Assembly: GCA_025782575.1 (NCBI GenBank)
Contig: JALGYY010000032.1
Coordinates: 1-7,032, forward strand
Reading direction: 5' to 3'
Origin: a bacterium
Lineage (GTDB): Bacteria > Orphanbacterota > Orphanbacteria > Orphanbacterales > Orphanbacteraceae
DNA length: 7,032 nucleotides
Below the pieces are notes generated by a model that ran no database searches, had not been told where the DNA came from, and saw only the letters and a program-made list of their open reading frames with translations. Position 1 is the first letter of the stretch; every line of letters begins with the position of its first letter. The position numbers were made by a program, and so were the translations under genes. Shown piece after piece: positions 1 through 7,032 of the stretch.

Positions 1-112
1 GTCACCATCCGTGCCGACCCTCCCTCCCCGCAGGGTGGCAGGCCGCATCGAGGGTGAGGCAACCGGCAATTCTAGTTGTCGTTGGACCGGCAGAAGTAAT
101 TGTCGTTGATCA
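1..112. mobile_element. End of an insertion sequence, IS21-like by appearance (partial)
   Basis: Positions 62-109 hold two adjacent, similar 24-base units, each starting ACCGGCA and each containing TTGTCGTTG. They are followed by TCA at 110-112. Several tandem copies of a 20-odd-base terminal repeat ending in CA are a habit of IS21-family (istA/istB) elements, so I read this as the right-hand end of such an element lying to the left of the window. The sequence to the right of 112 codes for a convincing nuclease domain on the minus strand, while the same reading frame to the left of 112 loses all protein-like character. That fits an insertion boundary here. No transposase gene is visible, because only about 110 bases of the element fall inside the window. 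The family assignment is from memory of end structure, not a match. Confidence 0.42.
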
Positions 113-516
113 GCCTTCAGGCTATCGAGATAGGCGCGCGTGAACCGGTAGTCTCGATCTGGGTCAAGCAGGTGGCAGTTCTTGACTTCTACGAGGAACT
201 GCCGCCCTTCGAGTGTTACGATCCGGAAATCGGGCGCGCGGATCGCGGGATCCGCGACATACAGGTCGCCTGCGTCCTCCTCCTTGATCAAGCGGCACGC
301 GCCTAGGGCGGCCGCGACGTAGGCGAACATCGCTTGGATGCGAAGCCCGTGGATCAGTATGTCGTTTGTTCGGTTGGACTCGAGCTGCTTACCGAGATCG
401 GCGAGGAGAGTTTCCTGGTTGGCCTGGTCTCGGATATCGAGTCCACGCGACCGGGCGTAATCATCGATGATCCTCATGAGGTCGAACTTTTGAGGGTCTC
501 GGGAGATTCGCTTCAT
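1..516 (-). CDS. PD-(D/E)xK nuclease-like protein, 3' part apparently replaced by an IS end
   Basis: The frame starts at ATG 516 and stays open to the left edge of the window (172 codons). Residues 1-135 read like a real protein: an alpha-helical N-terminal half, then APDFRIV (about 94-100) and FLVEVKN (about 107-113). D96, E110 and K112 fit the D...E-x-K metal-binding triad of the PD-(D/E)xK fold used by restriction and repair nucleases. After residue 135 the frame runs into the tandem repeats of the insertion-sequence end and looks non-coding (rich in Q, R, P and G). I infer that the natural C-terminus was cut off, so the protein is probably inactive or altered, although the core catalytic strand survives. 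The start lies 13 bases after the core site of the attC at 529-660, as expected for a cassette gene. No clear Shine-Dalgarno is visible. The exact family and substrate are not recognised. Confidence 0.6.
   Translation of the reverse strand, partial: MKRISRDPQKFDLMRIIDDYARSRGLDIRDQANQETLLADLGKQLESNRTNDILIHGLRIQAMFAYVAAALGACRLIKEEDAGDLYVADPAIRAPDFRIVTLEGRQFLVEVKNCHLLDPDRDYRFTRAYLDSLKADQRQLLLPVQRQLELPVASPSMRPATLRGGRVGTDGD
62..109 (+). repeat. Two tandem 24-base repeats
   Basis: Unit 1 is at 62-85 and unit 2 at 86-109. They share ACCGGCA at the left and TTGTCGTTG at the right, about 18 of 24 positions in all, and differ in the middle. They are directly repeated with no gap. This is the spacing expected of multiple transposase-binding sites at a transposon end. 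Confidence 0.7.
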
Positions 517-528
517 GCCGCGCTGGCC

Positions 529-660
529 GCCCAACGGACCAGGCATCAGCGGTGTTGAAGGGCGTCGCCGAGTGCGCTGAGCCTGAGAGATTGGTGCCAA
601 AGGGTACAGCAGAAATTGGAACCAAGCCCTTCAACCTTTGACTGGATGCTGTTGTTGGGC
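529..660 (-). other. attC: Integron attC recombination site (cassette of the membrane/winged-helix gene)
   Basis: On the plus strand the outer ends are GCCCAAC (529-535) and GTTGGGC (654-660). They are exact inverted copies, and both satisfy the attC core consensus RYYYAAC...GTTRRRY. Inside them, GTTGAAGGGC (554-563) and GCCCTTCAAC (626-635) form a second exact 10-base inverted pair. The segments between inner and outer pairs are imperfectly complementary (GGCATCAG against CTGGATGC). Total length is 132 bases, in the upper part of the known attC range. On the minus strand it starts 21 bases after the stop of the 682-1512 gene and ends shortly before the ATG of the nuclease gene, exactly the position of a cassette-associated site. 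The orientation assigned is that of the genes. Confidence 0.72.
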
Positions 661-681
661 TGCCATTCGTGCTTGCGCGGT

Positions 682-1512
682 CTACGGAGAAACGGACGAC
701 AGGTTGAGCAGTACGGGAAGCTTCACGATTCCGGCTTGGACCAAGGTCAACAGCACGATCGCGACGGAAAGCCAGAACATGCGCCACTGCATAGATATGC
801 TCTCGGCGTGCTTCCGTTGTTGTTCTTGATACTCCTCCGCGGTCTGCAATGACTGCGCGGTTAACACGTACTCCATTTCATCTTTCTTCAGGAGATCTCC
901 AGACTGCACAAGGGAATCGAGGTAGAACTCGACGGTTTGGTGAGCCGCGGAGCCCTCGGGATGGAGAATCCACCGCTCAGAGTAGAGCGCCGACGTTATG
1001 CTCATGGAGTTGAAGTGTACTTTGCTGGAGATGATGTCTGCTTCTGCCTGAAACTGGCGCTCCAGCAGGAAGTGCAAGAGTTCCATTCTTCGCTTGATTG
1101 CCAAGCGGGTTCGATCGAATCGAAACTGGTTGAGACGGTTCAGGAACCGGTGTACGTGTATTCGGAAATACGGAAGAAAGAAGGTTCTGCCCCAGGCAAG
1201 GTCTAGGATCCCCGAGTATTTGACCATATCGAGGCCGTAGTAGTGCCTGATGAATAGTTCACCTAGGTCAATCTCGGCGAGAGAGAGGGAGGCATCCTCG
1301 GAGTAGCTGGTGCCATCCCACTTATGACCAACGAGTGTATCGCCTTCAATCGACGAGACGAGAAAGTAGGGCTCGGCATTTCGATCAACTGACACGGAGA
1401 AGCAATTGACGAGATTGCCCTTGGGCGGAGAGCGAGGGATTCTGTCCGGGCTGACTCTTTCGAGGGCACGGCTGAGGAACATGCGACTGAGGAATATCTT
1501 AAAGCGGCTCAT
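682..1512 (-). CDS. Predicted membrane-anchored winged-helix-like protein
   Basis: This is a 276-residue protein I do not recognise. Residues 1-20 are amphipathic and basic (MSRFKIFLSRMFLSR). Residues about 95-130 are aromatic and hydrophobic (GILDLAWGRTFFLPYF) and may touch the membrane. Residues about 140-228 look like a winged helix-turn-helix: helices, then the pattern LVQSGDLLKK...YVLT, then a charged helical linker (QTAEEYQEQQRKHAES). One clear membrane segment spans about 243-268 (WRMFWLSVAIVLLTLVQAGI), followed by a short tail. The topology suggests a cytoplasmic body tethered by its C-terminus. ATG 1512 is chosen over an in-frame TTG at 1521, because the TTG belongs to the attC core. 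GGGAG at 1515-1519 is only two bases from the ATG, so the translation signal is odd. The gene is flanked by attC sites on both sides, making it a complete one-gene cassette of about 987 bases. A role in defence is only suggested by its neighbours. Confidence 0.8.
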   Translation of the reverse strand: MSRFKIFLSRMFLSRALERVSPDRIPRSPPKGNLVNCFSVSVDRNAEPYFLVSSIEGDTLVGHKWDGTSYSEDASLSLAEIDLGELFIRHYYGLDMVKYSGILDLAWGRTFFLPYFRIHVHRFLNRLNQFRFDRTRLAIKRRMELLHFLLERQFQAEADIISSKVHFNSMSITSALYSERWILHPEGSAAHQTVEFYLDSLVQSGDLLKKDEMEYVLTAQSLQTAEEYQEQQRKHAESISMQWRMFWLSVAIVLLTLVQAGIVKLPVLLNLSSVSP

Positions 1513-1515
1513 GAC

Positions 1516-1650
1516 TCCCAACGGATCGGCGTTCAGCGGCCAGCAACAGAGCTGACCGGACCAGACCCTGCCGGTCCAGTATGACGCCAGACGGCACCCA
1601 AGGTCAATTGAAGCGAGCTGTTGGTGGTCCGCTGCAACGCTTTGTTGGAT
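1516..1650 (-). other. attC: Integron attC recombination site (cassette of the HEPN-like gene)
   Basis: The plus-strand ends are TCCCAAC (1516-1522) and GTTGGAT (1644-1650). The second fits GTTRRRY. The first deviates from RYYYAAC only at its outermost base, which is the position that comes from the neighbouring cassette. The inner arms CAGCGGCCAGCAACAGAGCT (1534-1553) and 1616-1634 are imperfectly complementary over most of their length with a few unpaired bases, as attC stems usually are. The apex carries another hairpin, GACCGG (1554-1559) with CCGGTC (1571-1576). Total length is 135 bases, close to the other site. Read on the minus strand it begins ATCCAACAAAGCGTTGCAG, which resembles ordinary cassette sites. 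It starts four bases after the stop of the 1655-2575 gene and ends three bases before the ATG at 1512. Confidence 0.75.
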
Positions 1651-1654
1651 GGTG

Positions 1655-2575
1655 CTATTTCACACGCTCGCTCATCGATCGCGACGGGAGAAGCCCCAAT
1701 TCTGGATCGGCGGCGAGCGCGTCGAGTTCTTCGCGTGTACCTCGAATAAAGCTGAACTGGATTCCGCCATTCGCCACGTCCTCTCGAGACATCGCGCGTT
1801 TCAGTCCGGTTAAGCCATACGCCTCCCGAATGACTACTAATCCCTGAGCACCTGGCAGGCCCCAGCCCGGATGTAATGGGACGAGTTTGGGGCTCTCGTA
1901 GGACGCCACGTGATACTCGTATAGAGTTGAGAGGGCGGCGTGGTCGGCAACACCTGAGGCGATCTGCGAGAATAATTCGTCGCGGGAATACGAACCTGGC
2001 GGCCGCATGGTGCGAAGTTCGGACCCGAGAATTGTGAAATCGGAATGTCCAATTGAGTTCCTCAGATCCCTATTCCACGCTTCTCGAAGAGGGCGCATTG
2101 CATATTCAATTCCAAGTCTCCGTGCGGTCTCTTCGAGCTGGTCGATCTTTTCTCCGGGAGTCTGGGGTCGACCGCGCCGTGTGGGGAATCGTTCAATAAG
2201 AAATCGCTCTCCATCGATCACACCGAGAAGATTTGCCAAGATCTCGTACGGCTCGGAAGCTTCCACGATATGAAGGTAGATCCACAAGGATAGGTGTCGC
2301 TGGGCAATCGCCGATTCGATGCCTTCCATTACCTCTATCATCATCGGAATGGCTTCAAGAGTCGTTTCATACGGATCCCAACCGGCATCGCTGAGACCTC
2401 GAATTCGGAGAAGCGTTAGAATGAACTCCGATTCGCACTCGGTTCGTGCGCGTTCAAAGATCGGGTCAAGAGCGTCAAGGTAGCAACGAAGTTTTTCAAG
2501 GAAGACTGGACTGCTACGTCCGTCTGCTTCGTCAATGATCGTCCAAGAGCCATCGTCGGAGCGTTCGTATTCCAA
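1655..2575 (-). CDS. HEPN-like protein (R-x4-H motif), function unknown
   Basis: This is a 306-residue, mostly helical soluble protein without membrane segments. Residues 170-180 read DLRNSIGHSDF. The R172-NSIG-H177 arrangement is the R-x4-H signature of HEPN domains, many of which are RNases in toxin, abortive-infection and CRISPR-associated proteins. The preceding helices (about 85-165) fit a four-helix bundle. Residues 225-306 look like a separate alpha/beta tail (LVPLHPGWGLPGAQGLVVI...GIQFSFIRG). The first available start is TTG 2575, with no Shine-Dalgarno. The frame is open and protein-like upstream to about 2617 (residues reading NPLTNEAARSLL just before the TTG), where two consecutive TAG codons lie next to a possible attC core. 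The native start may therefore have been lost when the cassette boundary formed, or translation uses a weak start. Ribonuclease activity is an inference from one motif; HEPN-like non-catalytic proteins also exist. Confidence 0.75.
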   Translation of the reverse strand: MEYERSDDGSWTIIDEADGRSSPVFLEKLRCYLDALDPIFERARTECESEFILTLLRIRGLSDAGWDPYETTLEAIPMMIEVMEGIESAIAQRHLSLWIYLHIVEASEPYEILANLLGVIDGERFLIERFPTRRGRPQTPGEKIDQLEETARRLGIEYAMRPLREAWNRDLRNSIGHSDFTILGSELRTMRPPGSYSRDELFSQIASGVADHAALSTLYEYHVASYESPKLVPLHPGWGLPGAQGLVVIREAYGLTGLKRAMSREDVANGGIQFSFIRGTREELDALAADPELGLLPSRSMSERVK

Positions 2576-2629
2576 TAGTGACCGTGCCGCCTCATTAGTT
2601 AATGGATTGCGAGGTGGATACTACTAACG

Positions 2630-2953
2630 TTGCAGTCCTTCGCAGCCCATTCTCCACGGCACGCAGTCTATCACTACTGCGTTTCACCTCTGAATCCAGC
2701 GGCTTGGCGGCCGGGAGCTGCCCAGTCGGAAGGTTGCAAATGCTGCGGCGGGTCGCTGCCTAATCAGGTAGAGGGCAAGCCACCTTGCAGCATCGCGGCC
2801 GACAAGTTCGGCCTCGACCACCGCGACGTACACCGGGCAGCCAAGAAGGTGCCGGAGTTGCGGGAGGCCCACCTGCGGGCCTGGGGTGAGTCGTGGGGAT
2901 CAGCGTTTCCTGTGATGTGGGAGCACCACCTCCAGGGGCTGCGGAAGTGCTGA
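2630..2953 (+). CDS. Possible small helix-turn-helix protein on the opposite strand
   Basis: This 107-residue ORF begins at a TTG and ends TGA at 2951-2953. The second half is convincing as coding sequence: from about 2770 the third codon positions are overwhelmingly G or C, and the residues CSIAADKFGLDHRDVHRAAK (about 53-72) followed by KVPELREAHLRAW resemble the helix-turn-helix of small phage or transposon DNA-binding proteins. A CKCC cluster at about 36-39 could bind metal. The first half is compositionally weaker, no ribosome-binding site is evident, and the start could lie elsewhere. It may be a remnant, a reversed cassette gene, or an ORF embedded in an enlarged attC loop. It is the only plus-strand frame here I consider possibly real. 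The alternative is chance coding potential in GC-rich DNA. Confidence 0.35.
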   Translation: MQSFAAHSPRHAVYHYCVSPLNPAAWRPGAAQSEGCKCCGGSLPNQVEGKPPCSIAADKFGLDHRDVHRAAKKVPELREAHLRAWGESWGSAFPVMWEHHLQGLRKC

Positions 2954-2986
2954 CAAGAACCCAGACAGGACCAGTTGCGGCGCCGT

Positions 2987-2993
2987 GTTGGGC
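2987..2993 (-). other. attC core-like site (R'' half), incomplete
   Basis: GTTGGGC on the plus strand reads GCCCAAC on the minus strand, 17 bases after the stop of the SIR2-like gene. The bases that follow resemble the R''-L'' arm of the attC at 1516-1650. I cannot find a partner arm within 140 bases, so this is given as a half-site only. Confidence 0.4.
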
Positions 2994-3010
2994 GGTAAAC
3001 CTCGAACCAC

Positions 3011-4030
3011 CTAGGCAACGGAGAGCGCCCACTCGGTGGCAGATGGAAAGTGTCTTACTGAGCAATGAAAGAGTTTGGCTGCCTGCTCCGCAACATCTGG
3101 AGAGGGATTGATGATGTGAATCTGCTCAGCGTGTGACGCCCAGGAGAAATAGAGGTCAAGGAGATCGAGGTCGCTGTTCGCGAGCCCGACTCCCCACATC
3201 ACTATGAGGCTGGGGCTCCGGGTACGTGCCGGCGAAAGGATCATCCGAGCGATTGGATGCTGTGTGTAGCTTTTGTTCATTCTCGGGGGGATTAATCCAG
3301 AGTAACTTCGGAAGCCCGGTGGCTCAGGTGCGCCCAGCCAATCCGGTTGACCGAAGACGAAGCTGGTGGTGTTAGCAACCATGTTGAGCGAACCGTGTGG
3401 TTTACATATCAAGATCTGGTTCTCGGTGGGCGTGTTGGGCGAGTAGCAGAATTGCCGTCCCATCTGCATTAGCGCGAGCTCAAACACAGTGTCGTAGTTG
3501 AGGTTGAGTACAAGATCGGAGTGTCCGAGCTGTTCGCCGACCAGTCGGGACAGCCGGAGATTCCTCCATCCCTTGCCGTTCTCGAAGAAGCACTGGACCA
3601 TGAGGAAGGAGAGGGGGCTCCCTATGCCGTGGTAGAGGAGGTTGTCCCAGAAAGTATCGGCATCGTTTGGCTCAATGCGCTCAGCCGAGCTTCCGGCCTG
3701 CCGGATCCGAAGGCCTCTAATGTAGCCAGGCGGAAGGTTGTTATCGTCGACCGACCATTCACGATCTCGATTCTCCCAGGCAAACTCCATGAAGCGTTCG
3801 ATATCTGCGGCGCCGGATTCTTCGAGTTGAAAGAAGAGTTCTCGGGGATCGTGGCCGAGATCGAAGTATCCGAGTTCGCTGAGGTAGGCTTCCAAGACGG
3901 GGTGGGGTGTGTAGTTCGACCACGTCTTGCGAGCGAAGTCGCGAATCAGAGGAGGGCAGGCTTCAAGTGGGTTGTCCAGCGCGAGTGCTTCGGCGAGAGT
4001 CGCCCCAGCACCGATGATGAAGTGCTTCAC
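3011..4030 (-). CDS. SIR2-like NAD(P)-binding Rossmann protein, candidate defence NADase
   Basis: This is a 339-residue protein. Numbered from GTG 4030, the first strand and glycine loop come at once (FIIGAGAT, 4-11), as in SIR2-family folds. They are followed by LNLNYDT (175-181), KPHGSLN (210-216), LIPPRMNKS (246-254) and SLIVMWGVGLANSDLDLL (274-291), with a closing INPSP strand at 307-311. These match the order of the GAG, NYD, HGS and G-x-S/A-x-x-D motifs of bacterial SIR2-like effectors. N178 and H212 sit where the catalytic Asn and His are expected. Family members such as ThsA and other SIR2 defence proteins destroy NAD+ on infection; that activity is inferred here. There is no zinc-binding cysteine set, so it is not a classical protein deacetylase. 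GTG 4030 is preferred over TTG 4060, because AGGGGAG (4040-4046) sits nine bases upstream and the Rossmann strand starts immediately. The closest same-strand neighbour upstream is the large PRTase-like gene, 209-240 bases away. Confidence 0.82.
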   Translation of the reverse strand: MKHFIIGAGATLAEALALDNPLEACPPLIRDFARKTWSNYTPHPVLEAYLSELGYFDLGHDPRELFFQLEESGAADIERFMEFAWENRDREWSVDDNNLPPGYIRGLRIRQAGSSAERIEPNDADTFWDNLLYHGIGSPLSFLMVQCFFENGKGWRNLRLSRLVGEQLGHSDLVLNLNYDTVFELALMQMGRQFCYSPNTPTENQILICKPHGSLNMVANTTSFVFGQPDWLGAPEPPGFRSYSGLIPPRMNKSYTQHPIARMILSPARTRSPSLIVMWGVGLANSDLDLLDLYFSWASHAEQIHIINPSPDVAEQAAKLFHCSVRHFPSATEWALSVA

Positions 4031-4039
4031 GGACACGCT

Positions 4040-4046
4040 CTCCCCT
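4040..4046 (-). promoter_or_regulatory. Ribosome-binding site of the SIR2-like gene
   Basis: AGGGGAG on the minus strand lies nine bases before GTG 4030. It is the best Shine-Dalgarno match in the window and decides the start of the SIR2-like gene over the TTG at 4060 and the GTG at 4036. Confidence 0.6.
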
Positions 4047-4168
4047 GCGGTAGCGCCCAATTGGTGATCGATGTCAAAGAGAGTACACCCGAACGGAAAG
4101 GGGCTGCGGCCTAGCTGACATCGCTTGGAGAACTCGTGATTGGCACAAGTCTTGGCGGTGTCAGTCCC

Positions 4169-4188
4169 GAGGTGTTTGAAACCACCTC
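4169..4188. promoter_or_regulatory. Palindrome in the PRTase-SIR2 intergenic gap
   Basis: GAGGTG (4169-4174) is exactly complementary to CACCTC (4183-4188). The eight bases between, TTTGAAAC, extend the pairing with one bulged base. No run of T follows on either strand, so it does not look like an intrinsic terminator. A dyad of this size about 140 bases before the SIR2-like start could be an operator for a dimeric regulator or an RNA-processing hairpin. The remaining gap (4061-4269) shows a TTGACA on the minus strand (4072-4077) with no good -10 partner, and no small gene. Confidence 0.4.
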
Positions 4189-4269
4189 AAATCGCGGCCT
4201 CTAAGTGTCTACGAGACCAAGGGGGGAAGTCCATCGTGCGATCTGGAGTATCGACGAAACCGGGTCAAC

Positions 4270-6471
4270 TCAATAGTTCTCGACGATCTGGAAGAGGGGC
4301 TTCCAAGGACGGCCCATGGCCGTGCCCGCTTCCCACAGCAGTGGGATCGTGGACTTGGGTGTGTTGTAGTGGAAGACGAGCCGCTTCTGGCAGTCTCCGT
4401 AGCCCAATAGGCGTTCGTTTGTTTTCTCGCTGCTCCATTTATTCCGAGCAGCGCGAGGCGCCATGAGATCCGCACCCGCCCTGAGGCAGAACCGCTTGAA
4501 CGCTTCACGGTTGGGTTCGGCGTCGTCGAACCATTTCCCCATGTCCTCCGAACGGCCGCGCACGATCTGGCCGATTCGAAGCCCCAACCGGCTCGCGCCC
4601 TGTCGAATGTTCGAAACTGCCTCGTTGGATGCCGTGGCGAACGCGAAGTGCAGAGTTCGGTCGCGTAGCCGTCTCGCTTCCTCGGATGGGAGGCGATTCA
4701 GCGCCTGCTCGAGGATCTCAACGGCTTGAGTTCCGGAGAGCGCACAATCGTCTACGAATGCGCCGCTACTGTCGCTGTATTTGATCTGGAGCCACTCGGA
4801 TAGCTCGCATTCGCGAATGTTTTCCAAATGGTGAGTCAGCGAATAGAGGGCGATCGCCGTACTCCCGCCAAGTTCACCAAGGGGAAGTAGCGTTGGGTGA
4901 GCGCCGGTTGATTCGCACAGTTGGTTCCAGGCACCAGCGAGAAGCGAATCCAGGGTCGGAGGATCGATGAAGTCGACCTCATCCAGCAGCTCGAGGAGGC
5001 CCTCCACGTATCGTTCGTCTCGAGCCTGTGCCACGAATCGCCAGATGTCTTCATCGGTTGGTGTGCTTCGATGTGACTGAAATCGACGGGCGAGATCGGC
5101 TACGCGTTGTCGGAACCTGCTGGGAACACATACCGGCTCGATGCCGGCGAGTGGTTCGTCCAGAATGTCTCCGATGAGGAGCTGTTGAGGGAGTGGCTTT
5201 AGTTGTTGATCGGACTGAAAGAGTATATCGGTGATCGGGGAGCTGGCGGACCAAAGCTGGCTCCACGCCCTTTTCGCCGTCTCTGCGAGTTCGCTGTCAG
5301 GGTGTGCAATGGTGATGTCGTAAAGGGGATCGCGCATCGTTCTCATCAGGAGGCGACTGGCTTCCTGGATGTCGTACCAACCGTGAGGCGGCCCTCGTGT
5401 TTGAGTGAGATCCAGCACTTTTCCTGCCCACCACTCGCCGTAGCCGCGCGAGTGAATGATCATGACGTTCGAAAAAGAATCGACCCCTCCCGGTGATTCC
5501 ATCTGCCGAGTCTGAGTCGGCGTTATCCGCCAAGCTTCCTCGGGAGACAATTCGGGGAATCGGTTGGCGATGTCTGGGACTTGCACCTCGAAGCGCCTCC
5601 TCAACGTTTCAATCTCTTCGTTAGATGGCCTCCCGCCGTTTTCTCGAAATCGGTCAATATTTTCCATGAAGCCGGGTGCGAGTCGTGAGAATATCCAGGT
5701 AGCCACAGTTCGACAGGCGCGATTTAGGATCGTGTATTCCATGGCCACGTGCTTAGTGTGCTCAACGACCCCGAGAAGCAGATGTTCCTCTCGATAGAGA
5801 GACAGCGATAGCTCGGACTTCTTGGTGGCCGTCGGATCCCCCGACCGAATGGCAAGGTCTCTCACTCTCAGCAGAGTGTCCTCGAGGCCGGCCAGGTTCT
5901 CGGGTTGCGAAGGGTTGCCCAACGCCCATATGGGCGACATGAACGAGTGAGCCAGCGTTTCGAATTCCACCGGTATCACATCGGCCAAGAACAATTGGGG
6001 TGGGTCGTCGAGAAGGGCGCTCCACGAAGCGGGTGGCTGGACCAACGTTCCTTCGAGCACCGCGGCAAGCGGCGCAGTCAGAGGGACGCCGCCGGGGAGG
6101 TTCCGCGTGTTGATGCCAAGAGTCACTGCTTCGGTCGAGGCGGTGTGCTTCGCCTCAGGGTCCCAGAGGGTGTAGAGAGACTGCTCGCCGTCGAGGCTCG
6201 ATCCTGCTACCAGCGCACGGAGGTTGTCGGGCGTAACCGCTTGCTGAGAGGGGTCCAATGGCAACGCCGAACTCAAGGTGCCGCGGATGCGCACTCGCGC
6301 GCCCAATGCAGCGGACGACCCGATGTGCCGGAGCAACGCACGCGGTTCCCACACCCGGCTCTCGAGCCGTCTTCGGGAATAGCTCTTGTATGCCGTGGCG
6401 ACGCCATCGCCCACTGCGGCAATCAGATCTCGTAGGGGTTTGGGTGCGCTGGGTATCACAAGGAATATCAT
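4270..6471 (-). CDS. Large protein with C-terminal phosphoribosyltransferase-like (PRTase-CE type) domain
   Basis: This protein has 733 residues from ATG 6471. The C-terminal part (about 480-733) carries the marks I associate with PRTase-CE conflict-effector domains: LLPLGELGGSTAIALY (528-543), AFVDDCALSGTQA (571-583, a PRPP-loop-like DD...SGT motif), LLGYGDCQKRLVFHYNTP (688-705), STIPLLW (707-713) and WKPLF (723-727). Known members are predicted effectors in prokaryotic conflict systems; their reaction is, to my knowledge, not settled. Residues 1-480 match nothing I recognise. They include a helical stretch at 225-275 (EEHLLLGVVEHTKHVAMEY...) and a mixed alpha/beta region near 330-440. In-frame GTG 6546 would add 25 residues; I prefer 6471, because two palindromes lie in the would-be extension. 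Neither start has a clear Shine-Dalgarno. The SIR2-like gene follows on the same strand, suggesting a two-gene module. No attC lies between them. Confidence 0.72.
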   Translation of the reverse strand: MIFLVIPSAPKPLRDLIAAVGDGVATAYKSYSRRRLESRVWEPRALLRHIGSSAALGARVRIRGTLSSALPLDPSQQAVTPDNLRALVAGSSLDGEQSLYTLWDPEAKHTASTEAVTLGINTRNLPGGVPLTAPLAAVLEGTLVQPPASWSALLDDPPQLFLADVIPVEFETLAHSFMSPIWALGNPSQPENLAGLEDTLLRVRDLAIRSGDPTATKKSELSLSLYREEHLLLGVVEHTKHVAMEYTILNRACRTVATWIFSRLAPGFMENIDRFRENGGRPSNEEIETLRRRFEVQVPDIANRFPELSPEEAWRITPTQTRQMESPGGVDSFSNVMIIHSRGYGEWWAGKVLDLTQTRGPPHGWYDIQEASRLLMRTMRDPLYDITIAHPDSELAETAKRAWSQLWSASSPITDILFQSDQQLKPLPQQLLIGDILDEPLAGIEPVCVPSRFRQRVADLARRFQSHRSTPTDEDIWRFVAQARDERYVEGLLELLDEVDFIDPPTLDSLLAGAWNQLCESTGAHPTLLPLGELGGSTAIALYSLTHHLENIRECELSEWLQIKYSDSSGAFVDDCALSGTQAVEILEQALNRLPSEEARRLRDRTLHFAFATASNEAVSNIRQGASRLGLRIGQIVRGRSEDMGKWFDDAEPNREAFKRFCLRAGADLMAPRAARNKWSSEKTNERLLGYGDCQKRLVFHYNTPKSTIPLLWEAGTAMGRPWKPLFQIVENY

Positions 6472-6495
6472 TAGCGCGCACCGCCCAAAGAGAAT

Positions 6496-6520
6496 CGTTG
6501 AATCAACGCCCCTTTTGGGG
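6496..6520. promoter_or_regulatory. Two abutting palindromes upstream of the PRTase-like gene
   Basis: CGTTGA-A-TCAACG (6496-6508) is a perfect 13-base dyad. It is immediately followed by CCCC-TTTT-GGGG (6509-6520), a perfect 4-base stem around four T. Together they end 24 bases before ATG 6471 on the minus strand. Their place suggests an operator or a structured leader that restrains translation or transcription of the large gene. If translation started at GTG 6546 instead, both would be inside the coding sequence, which I find less likely. Confidence 0.4.
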
Positions 6521-7032
6521 GACGTGAAGAGGCTATGTGGCAACACGCGAGCGGCGATTGTAGGAGAGCTAGCCCCCGCTTGGTGGTTCAGACTTCCGAA
6601 TCCACCGGAACACGAGTGTAGCGCGGCATCGCGCGGCGGCCGACGTGAGCGAAAAACCAGGCTTCGGCGGGCGCGGTTGCATCAATTTGTCAGCCCAACA
6701 TCCATTGCGTGAACGTCCTTCAACGTACTGTTCTTCGCGTTCCCGCCGCGGGGCTCCACCTAAGGTGAACGGTCGGGTTGTTGGTTCACGGAAGTCCGGG
6801 CACATTCTTTACACCAAAGGATGCCCTGGATGGAAACCGACACCAAGAAGCAGCGCAAAAGCCCTATCCCCACCGCCGTCCTTGTCTGCACTTGGGGGAG
6901 AATGGGCGGATTGTGGCTCTAGAAGCCTGGCCGAAAAGTCACAAACAAGGGTCGACGGTAGCAGCTCGTTTCGATAGACCCCCGCATGGGGGTGGTCATG
7001 CTAGGTCGTCGAGAGTCGCAGGGTGATTTCTT
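6521..7032. other. No confident gene; possible cassette leader region
   Basis: No ORF here on either strand shows motifs, a membrane segment or a convincing start. The minus strand reads GTTGGGC at 6693-6699, which fits the integron core GTTRRRY, with an ATG 14 bases downstream opening a 37-residue arginine-rich ORF (to the stop at 6569). A loose partner, GTTGTTGGTT, lies at 6777-6786, but the inner arms do not pair. The layout imitates an attC followed by a small cassette ORF, yet the evidence is thin. Toward the right edge there is a hairpin at 6978-6993 and nothing else I can name. Confidence 0.4.
6978..6993. other. Hairpin, six-base GC-rich stem
   Basis: ACCCCC (6978-6983), loop GCAT, GGGGGT (6988-6993). 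The stem is perfect and GC-rich with a four-base loop. No T-tract follows on either strand, so a rho-independent terminator is unlikely. It may be a small structural or regulatory element of whatever lies beyond the right edge. Confidence 0.35.

Follow-up and report, generated by a model that had tools for sequence, protein, structure and literature searches.

The question raised by this locus is whether two palindromic elements lying between genes are integron attC sites, and whether the defence-like genes beside them are cassettes of an array, as a first-pass annotation had claimed. The window (the whole stretch of DNA analysed) is an entire contig, C29, of 7,032 bases from a 4.88 Mb draft genome in 49 contigs, and its minus strand carries all five of its long genes (Table 1). 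There is little doubt that both elements are integron attC sites, and the contig is most likely a short fragment of a chromosomal integron array that was broken up.

Table 1. Features of the window, with the main evidence for each
Feature	Position	Strand	Evidence or remark
PD-(D/E)xK-like protein, 5' part, 172 aa, off contig	1..516	-	PDFRI...LVEVK
attC site 1	529..660	-	132 nt; covariance-model match, 7/7 R-box complementarity, fold
Complete cassette (winged-helix/membrane gene plus attC site 1)	535..1521	-	R' cut point to R' cut point, about 987 nt
Winged-helix/membrane protein, 276 aa	682..1512	-	phrog_7611, E 4.9e-13
attC site 2	1516..1650	-	135 nt; covariance-model match, 7/7 L-box pairs, ssDNA fold
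HEPN-like protein, 306 aa	1655..2575	-	RNSIGH motif
SIR2-like protein (SIR2_2)	3011..4060	-	PF13289, E 5e-5, 23.9 bits against a cut-off of 24.5
758-aa protein, C-terminal PRTase-CE domain	4270..6546	-	PF24390, 77.5 bits

Anatomy of the two sites

Read on the gene (minus) strand, the order in site 2 is ATCCAAC-AAAGCG-TTGCAGCGG...CCGCTGAA-CGCCGATCC-GTTGGGA. Its R'' box (ATCCAAC, 1650-1644) is parted by the spacer AAAGCG from L'' (TT[G]CAGCGG), a long terminal loop follows, and L' (CCGCTGAA) is parted by the 9-nt spacer CGCCGATCC from R' (GTTGGGA, 1522-1516). L'' and L' pair at 7/7 positions around one extra-helical G at the canonical place, the R boxes are complementary at 5/7, and the outermost base of R' departs from GTTRRRY. 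Folded as single-stranded DNA, the site shows single unpaired bases on its R''-L'' arm and an unpaired central spacer. It starts 4 nt past the stop of the HEPN-like gene, leaving 3 nt between its end and the ATG at 1512. Its TCCGTTGGGC end is also present on attC sites of two other genomes (L060 and L069).

Site 1 reads GCCCAAC-AACAGC-ATCCAG...CTGAT-GCCTGGTCC-GTTGGGC on the same strand, with R'' (GCCCAAC, 660-654) and R' (GTTGGGC, 535-529) complementary at 7/7, AACAGC after R'' and the 9-nt GCCTGGTCC before R'. Between L'' (AT[C]CAG) and L' (CTGAT) is a long terminal structure, and the L box is weaker, with 5/7 pairs around an extra-helical C. The site starts 21 nt past the stop of the membrane-protein gene, and from its end to the ATG at 516 there are 12 nt. 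With site 2 it shares the 6- and 9-nt spacers and the TCCGTTGGG end. Its central spacer is partly paired in the single-stranded fold; in VCR mutants a paired central spacer led to less recombination (PMC2727003), and site 1 is for this reason possibly a poor substrate.

Much of the first-pass description stands. The lengths given were exact, the nested inverted repeats resolve into an R''/L''/L'/R' anatomy with an extra-helical L'' base at both sites, and the sites do lie between minus-strand genes at the short distances just given. RYYYAAC/GTTRRRY ends were claimed for both and hold at both, fully at site 1, with the exception of the outermost R' base of site 2.

Covariance-model matches

An attC covariance-model search had been suggested as a check, and models of our own gave matches at both places. 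The first, R1, had truncated loops and did not detect either 130-nt site, most likely owing to a loop of insufficient length, a fault that the padded model R2 removed. R2 was built on 19 hand-aligned attC sites, none from the window (three from contig C28 of the same genome, three from resistance plasmids and the rest from chromosomal integrons elsewhere), and R3 on 44 attC sites found by R2, all outside the window; the R and L helices of the attC models are backed by strong covariation. With R2, site 2 (1649-1517, minus) scored 25.3 bits (E 1.8e-5) and site 1 (660-529, minus) 12.8 bits (E 0.019), the next place in the window being at 5.1 bits. With R3, the values were 42.2 bits (E 2.2e-9) for 1650-1516 minus and 13.9 bits (E 0.026) for 660-529 minus, followed by 6.1 bits for the next best. 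With either model the two sites were recovered on the gene strand, and the rest of the window gave nothing noteworthy. A candidate third attC at 6693-6786 was rejected (R2 score 3.1 bits), as was a pair of R''/R'-like heptamers spanning 384 nt around 2610-2993, which is without matching L boxes. An Rfam search of the window gave nothing at gathering threshold.

Cassettes and the right part of the window

The gene at 682-1512 is the sole complete cassette in the window, lying between both sites. The cassette cut points are set by the G^TT rule of R', and it is from this rule that those at 535 and 1521 were placed. The HEPN-like gene is followed by an attC of its own (site 2), with none detected upstream by R3, and the PD-(D/E)xK-like gene, which begins 12 nt beyond site 1, runs off the contig; these two are most likely neighbouring cassettes. 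Delimitation by attC sites, claimed at the outset for the defence-like genes, accordingly applies in full to one gene and by half to two. It does not extend to the SIR2-like and PRTase-CE genes, near which R3 detected no attC and which cannot be called cassettes.

How the right part came about is less clear-cut, and here there is an appreciable possibility, though we would not favour it, that a single large cassette unites the HEPN-like, SIR2-like and PRTase-CE genes, or that the latter two are a non-integron island inserted in the array. Such an arrangement would account for the lack of any attC above 6.1 bits (R3) at 1651-7032 and for the length of the gaps at 2576-3010 and 4061-4269. However, cassettes seldom reach 5 kb, and the minus strand has an R''-like GCCCAAC (2993-2987), which allows for an attC decayed beyond detection instead. 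It concerns the right part only and is compatible with the two elements being attC sites of a broken array. That GCCCAAC stands directly after the SIR2 stop, and the gap at 2576-3010 also holds an opposite-strand ORF (2630-2953) without relatives in family libraries; either a decayed attC or an insertion could lie behind this gap.

Could site 1 be due to chance?

Taken alone, site 1 is modestly significant (E about 0.02-0.03). A reading in which site 2 is the sole attC, with site 1 a chance or decayed palindrome and the window the edge of an array beside an ordinary defence island, draws on the lower scores of site 1 (12.8-13.9 bits against 25.3-42.2 for site 2) and on shuffling: among 1,000 dinucleotide shuffles of the window, anatomy equal to that of site 1 arose in 3.7%, and to that of site 2 in 1.3%. 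We consider it unlikely. Site 1 combines 7/7 R-box ends, an L box with an extra-helical base, and spacers and a TCCGTTGGG end like those of site 2, and it is on the correct strand exactly in a gene gap. Anatomy matching both sites together arose in 0.1% of the shuffles, a count that leaves out position and strand. The single-stranded DNA of both sites also gave better hairpins than most shuffled sequences did. In integron regions of other genomes, a scan for the same anatomy gave a strong excess over block shuffles, e.g. 14 cases observed against 0.3 expected for 7/7 R together with 6-7/7 L.

Cargo genes and their relatives

The product of the complete cassette has a weak winged-helix match (HTH_45, E 0.017, below cut-off) and a C-terminal membrane segment. 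Relatives are encoded by solo genes on Enterobacter, Klebsiella, Burkholderia, Agrobacterium and Shewanella plasmids, in Klebsiella near Mrr-type and Shedu nucleases. In filamentous Vibrio phages they come after a zot-like gene 1 homologue, and one in a distant genome (39% identical) is beside an hsdM-like gene, as read from sequence. In contrast to the case at hand, the phrog_7611 relatives checked, on plasmids or filamentous Vibrio phages, have no attC near their loci, save for a doubtful 14.6-bit match in one (L107). A retron reading was rejected, the weak WH_III-A match (E 0.0024) of one relative not being common to the others; among the window proteins scanned there was no reverse-transcriptase match. 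The protein may tentatively be taken as a member of an undescribed stand-alone family for phage defence or superinfection exclusion, moving as an integron cassette in this genome, as a solo gene of plasmids and as cargo of filamentous Vibrio phages, and lying here in a defence-rich part of an integron, a suggestion we hold at somewhat under even strength.

The HEPN-like protein has no match in Pfam or NCBIfam. Its RNSIGH motif, which we take to be the R-x4-H of HEPN RNases, is kept as R-N-x-x-x-H in Agrobacterium plasmid proteins (RNAVQH in one relative), of which one is near TIR and KAP-NTPase genes. The PD-(D/E)xK-like protein, without a Pfam match, aligns over 134 aa, at 39% identity, with a 358-aa protein of a conjugative plasmid in which PD and E-V-K are preserved. 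None of these three attC-linked genes matches a known defence family in PADLOC. At pLDDT 37 and 44, the structures that AlphaFold gave for the HEPN-like and PD-(D/E)xK-like proteins were of unusable quality, comparison of the SIR2-like, PRTase-CE and winged-helix/membrane proteins with solved structures gave no convincing match, and no relatives came up when single proteins were scanned against genome and viral contigs. The cargo would be predicted to defend against phages on the basis of motifs and of relatives carried by plasmids and a phage.

PRTase-CE and SIR2_2 domains are typical of conflict systems. At 3011-6546 the SIR2-like and PRTase-CE genes adjoin without a reverse transcriptase, the PRTase-CE protein matching retron type III-A PRTase models (PADLOC PRTase_III-A, E 2.9e-13); the pair is possibly a two-gene defence system.

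In the loci examined, relatives of the membrane, HEPN-like and PD-(D/E)xK-like proteins each occur alone and never together, which fits independent mobility; the conserved linkage in site-free genomes that would speak against cassettes was not found. With relatives turning up singly in unrelated places, hairpins that fit attC anatomy, and an integron in the same genome, it is very improbable, and largely refuted, that the window is a conserved multi-gene defence operon with terminators or repeats as its palindromes, despite five genes on one strand with short gaps and strong hairpins between three of them.

The integron elsewhere in the genome

A search for an integrase had also been proposed, and an integron integrase is indeed present in the same genome, together with about 16 further attC sites. 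It is encoded at C28:104610-105550 (TIGR02249, 345.6 bits for the first piece against a cut-off of 265, and 100.1 bits for the second) and is ~48% identical to IntI1. Its gene is split by a frameshift near position 15395 of locus L009 on C28 (L009 15380-15420), so that its last part, where the catalytic tyrosine is expected, falls in another frame. This is either real decay or an assembly error. With its frame broken in this reading, the enzyme may lack activity or depend on help in trans. After it, up to the contig end, come four attC sites, three found by R1/R2 and the fourth by sequence pattern, and the cassettes with textbook attC there include a glyoxalase-family gene. Another cassette gene of C28 (L009 17526-18170) has a sub-threshold HEPN_AbiU2 match (21.7 bits), the integrase-proximal array thus also holding a HEPN-like gene. 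At the start of a third contig, C24 (L100 1-11700), about 12 same-strand attC sites are spread over 12 kb, with mixed cargo, e.g. PIN and HTH proteins. Also among it, judged by sequence, is a catalase-peroxidase-like gene of 731 aa, a size on the large side for a cassette.

A whole-genome attC search, with 150 of 1,618 candidates scored, gave matches only at the C28 and C24 ends; the two sites of the window are absent from its results, probably because just that fraction of candidates was scored. No overlap of the ends of C29 with C28 or C24 was found. Integrons are known to split draft assemblies, according to the authors of IntegronFinder (PMC9024848). With an integrase and four attC sites on C28 and an array on C24 of the same genome, the three contigs are most likely one assembly-broken chromosomal integron array. 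Within the phylum sample (seven genomes of a single family), a TIGR02249 integron integrase is present in 4 of 7.

How the cassettes would move

Recombination of single-stranded attC by IntI is established (PMC2727003). If it operates here, the plus strand of the window would be the recombinogenic bottom strand, each site folding as a single-stranded hairpin that IntI would recognise by its unpaired bases and cut in R'. If site 2 recombined with site 1, a circle of ~987 nt made up of the winged-helix/membrane gene and site 1 would be excised. This circle could enter again at an attI near a promoter, cassette expression then being set by distance from the Pc promoter or by internal promoters. 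Recombination at the window sites and movement one gene at a time, as first claimed, are inferences, and the integrase gene of this genome has the frameshift described above.

Relation to known integrons

By itself, C29 has two attC sites and no integrase match and so has the makeup of a CALIN as defined for IntegronFinder (two or more attC sites on a piece of DNA that lacks an integrase; PMC9024848). It differs from one in that an integrase with its own array is present in the same genome, and the CALIN look is for this reason probably an assembly effect. Among the closest parallels is the sedentary chromosomal integron of V. cholerae (Darracq et al. 2025, Science, via PMC12409362), likewise with an integrase, arrays of single-gene attC cassettes and defence-like cargo in small genes. 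In contrast, the phylum here is uncultivated or rarely sampled, attC lengths are diverse rather than VCR-like, the integrase reads as frameshifted and defence is predicted only. Mobile integrons with bacteriophage-resistance cassettes (Kieffer et al. 2025, Science, via PMC12409362) embody the same immune-cassette idea, whereas here no transposon or plasmid context was seen, the other array ends being on contigs of ~108 kb. Integrons as stores of defence systems, with such cargo first described in 2025, are the subject of Darracq 2025, Kieffer 2025 and Getz et al. (see the review PMC12409362), which makes the present case a new instance and not a new kind. Its import is that it extends the 2025 view of integrons as immune-gene stores to a barely sampled phylum, and that it points to candidate defence genes, small, clonable and unrecognised by PADLOC, above all the family of the 682-1512 gene.
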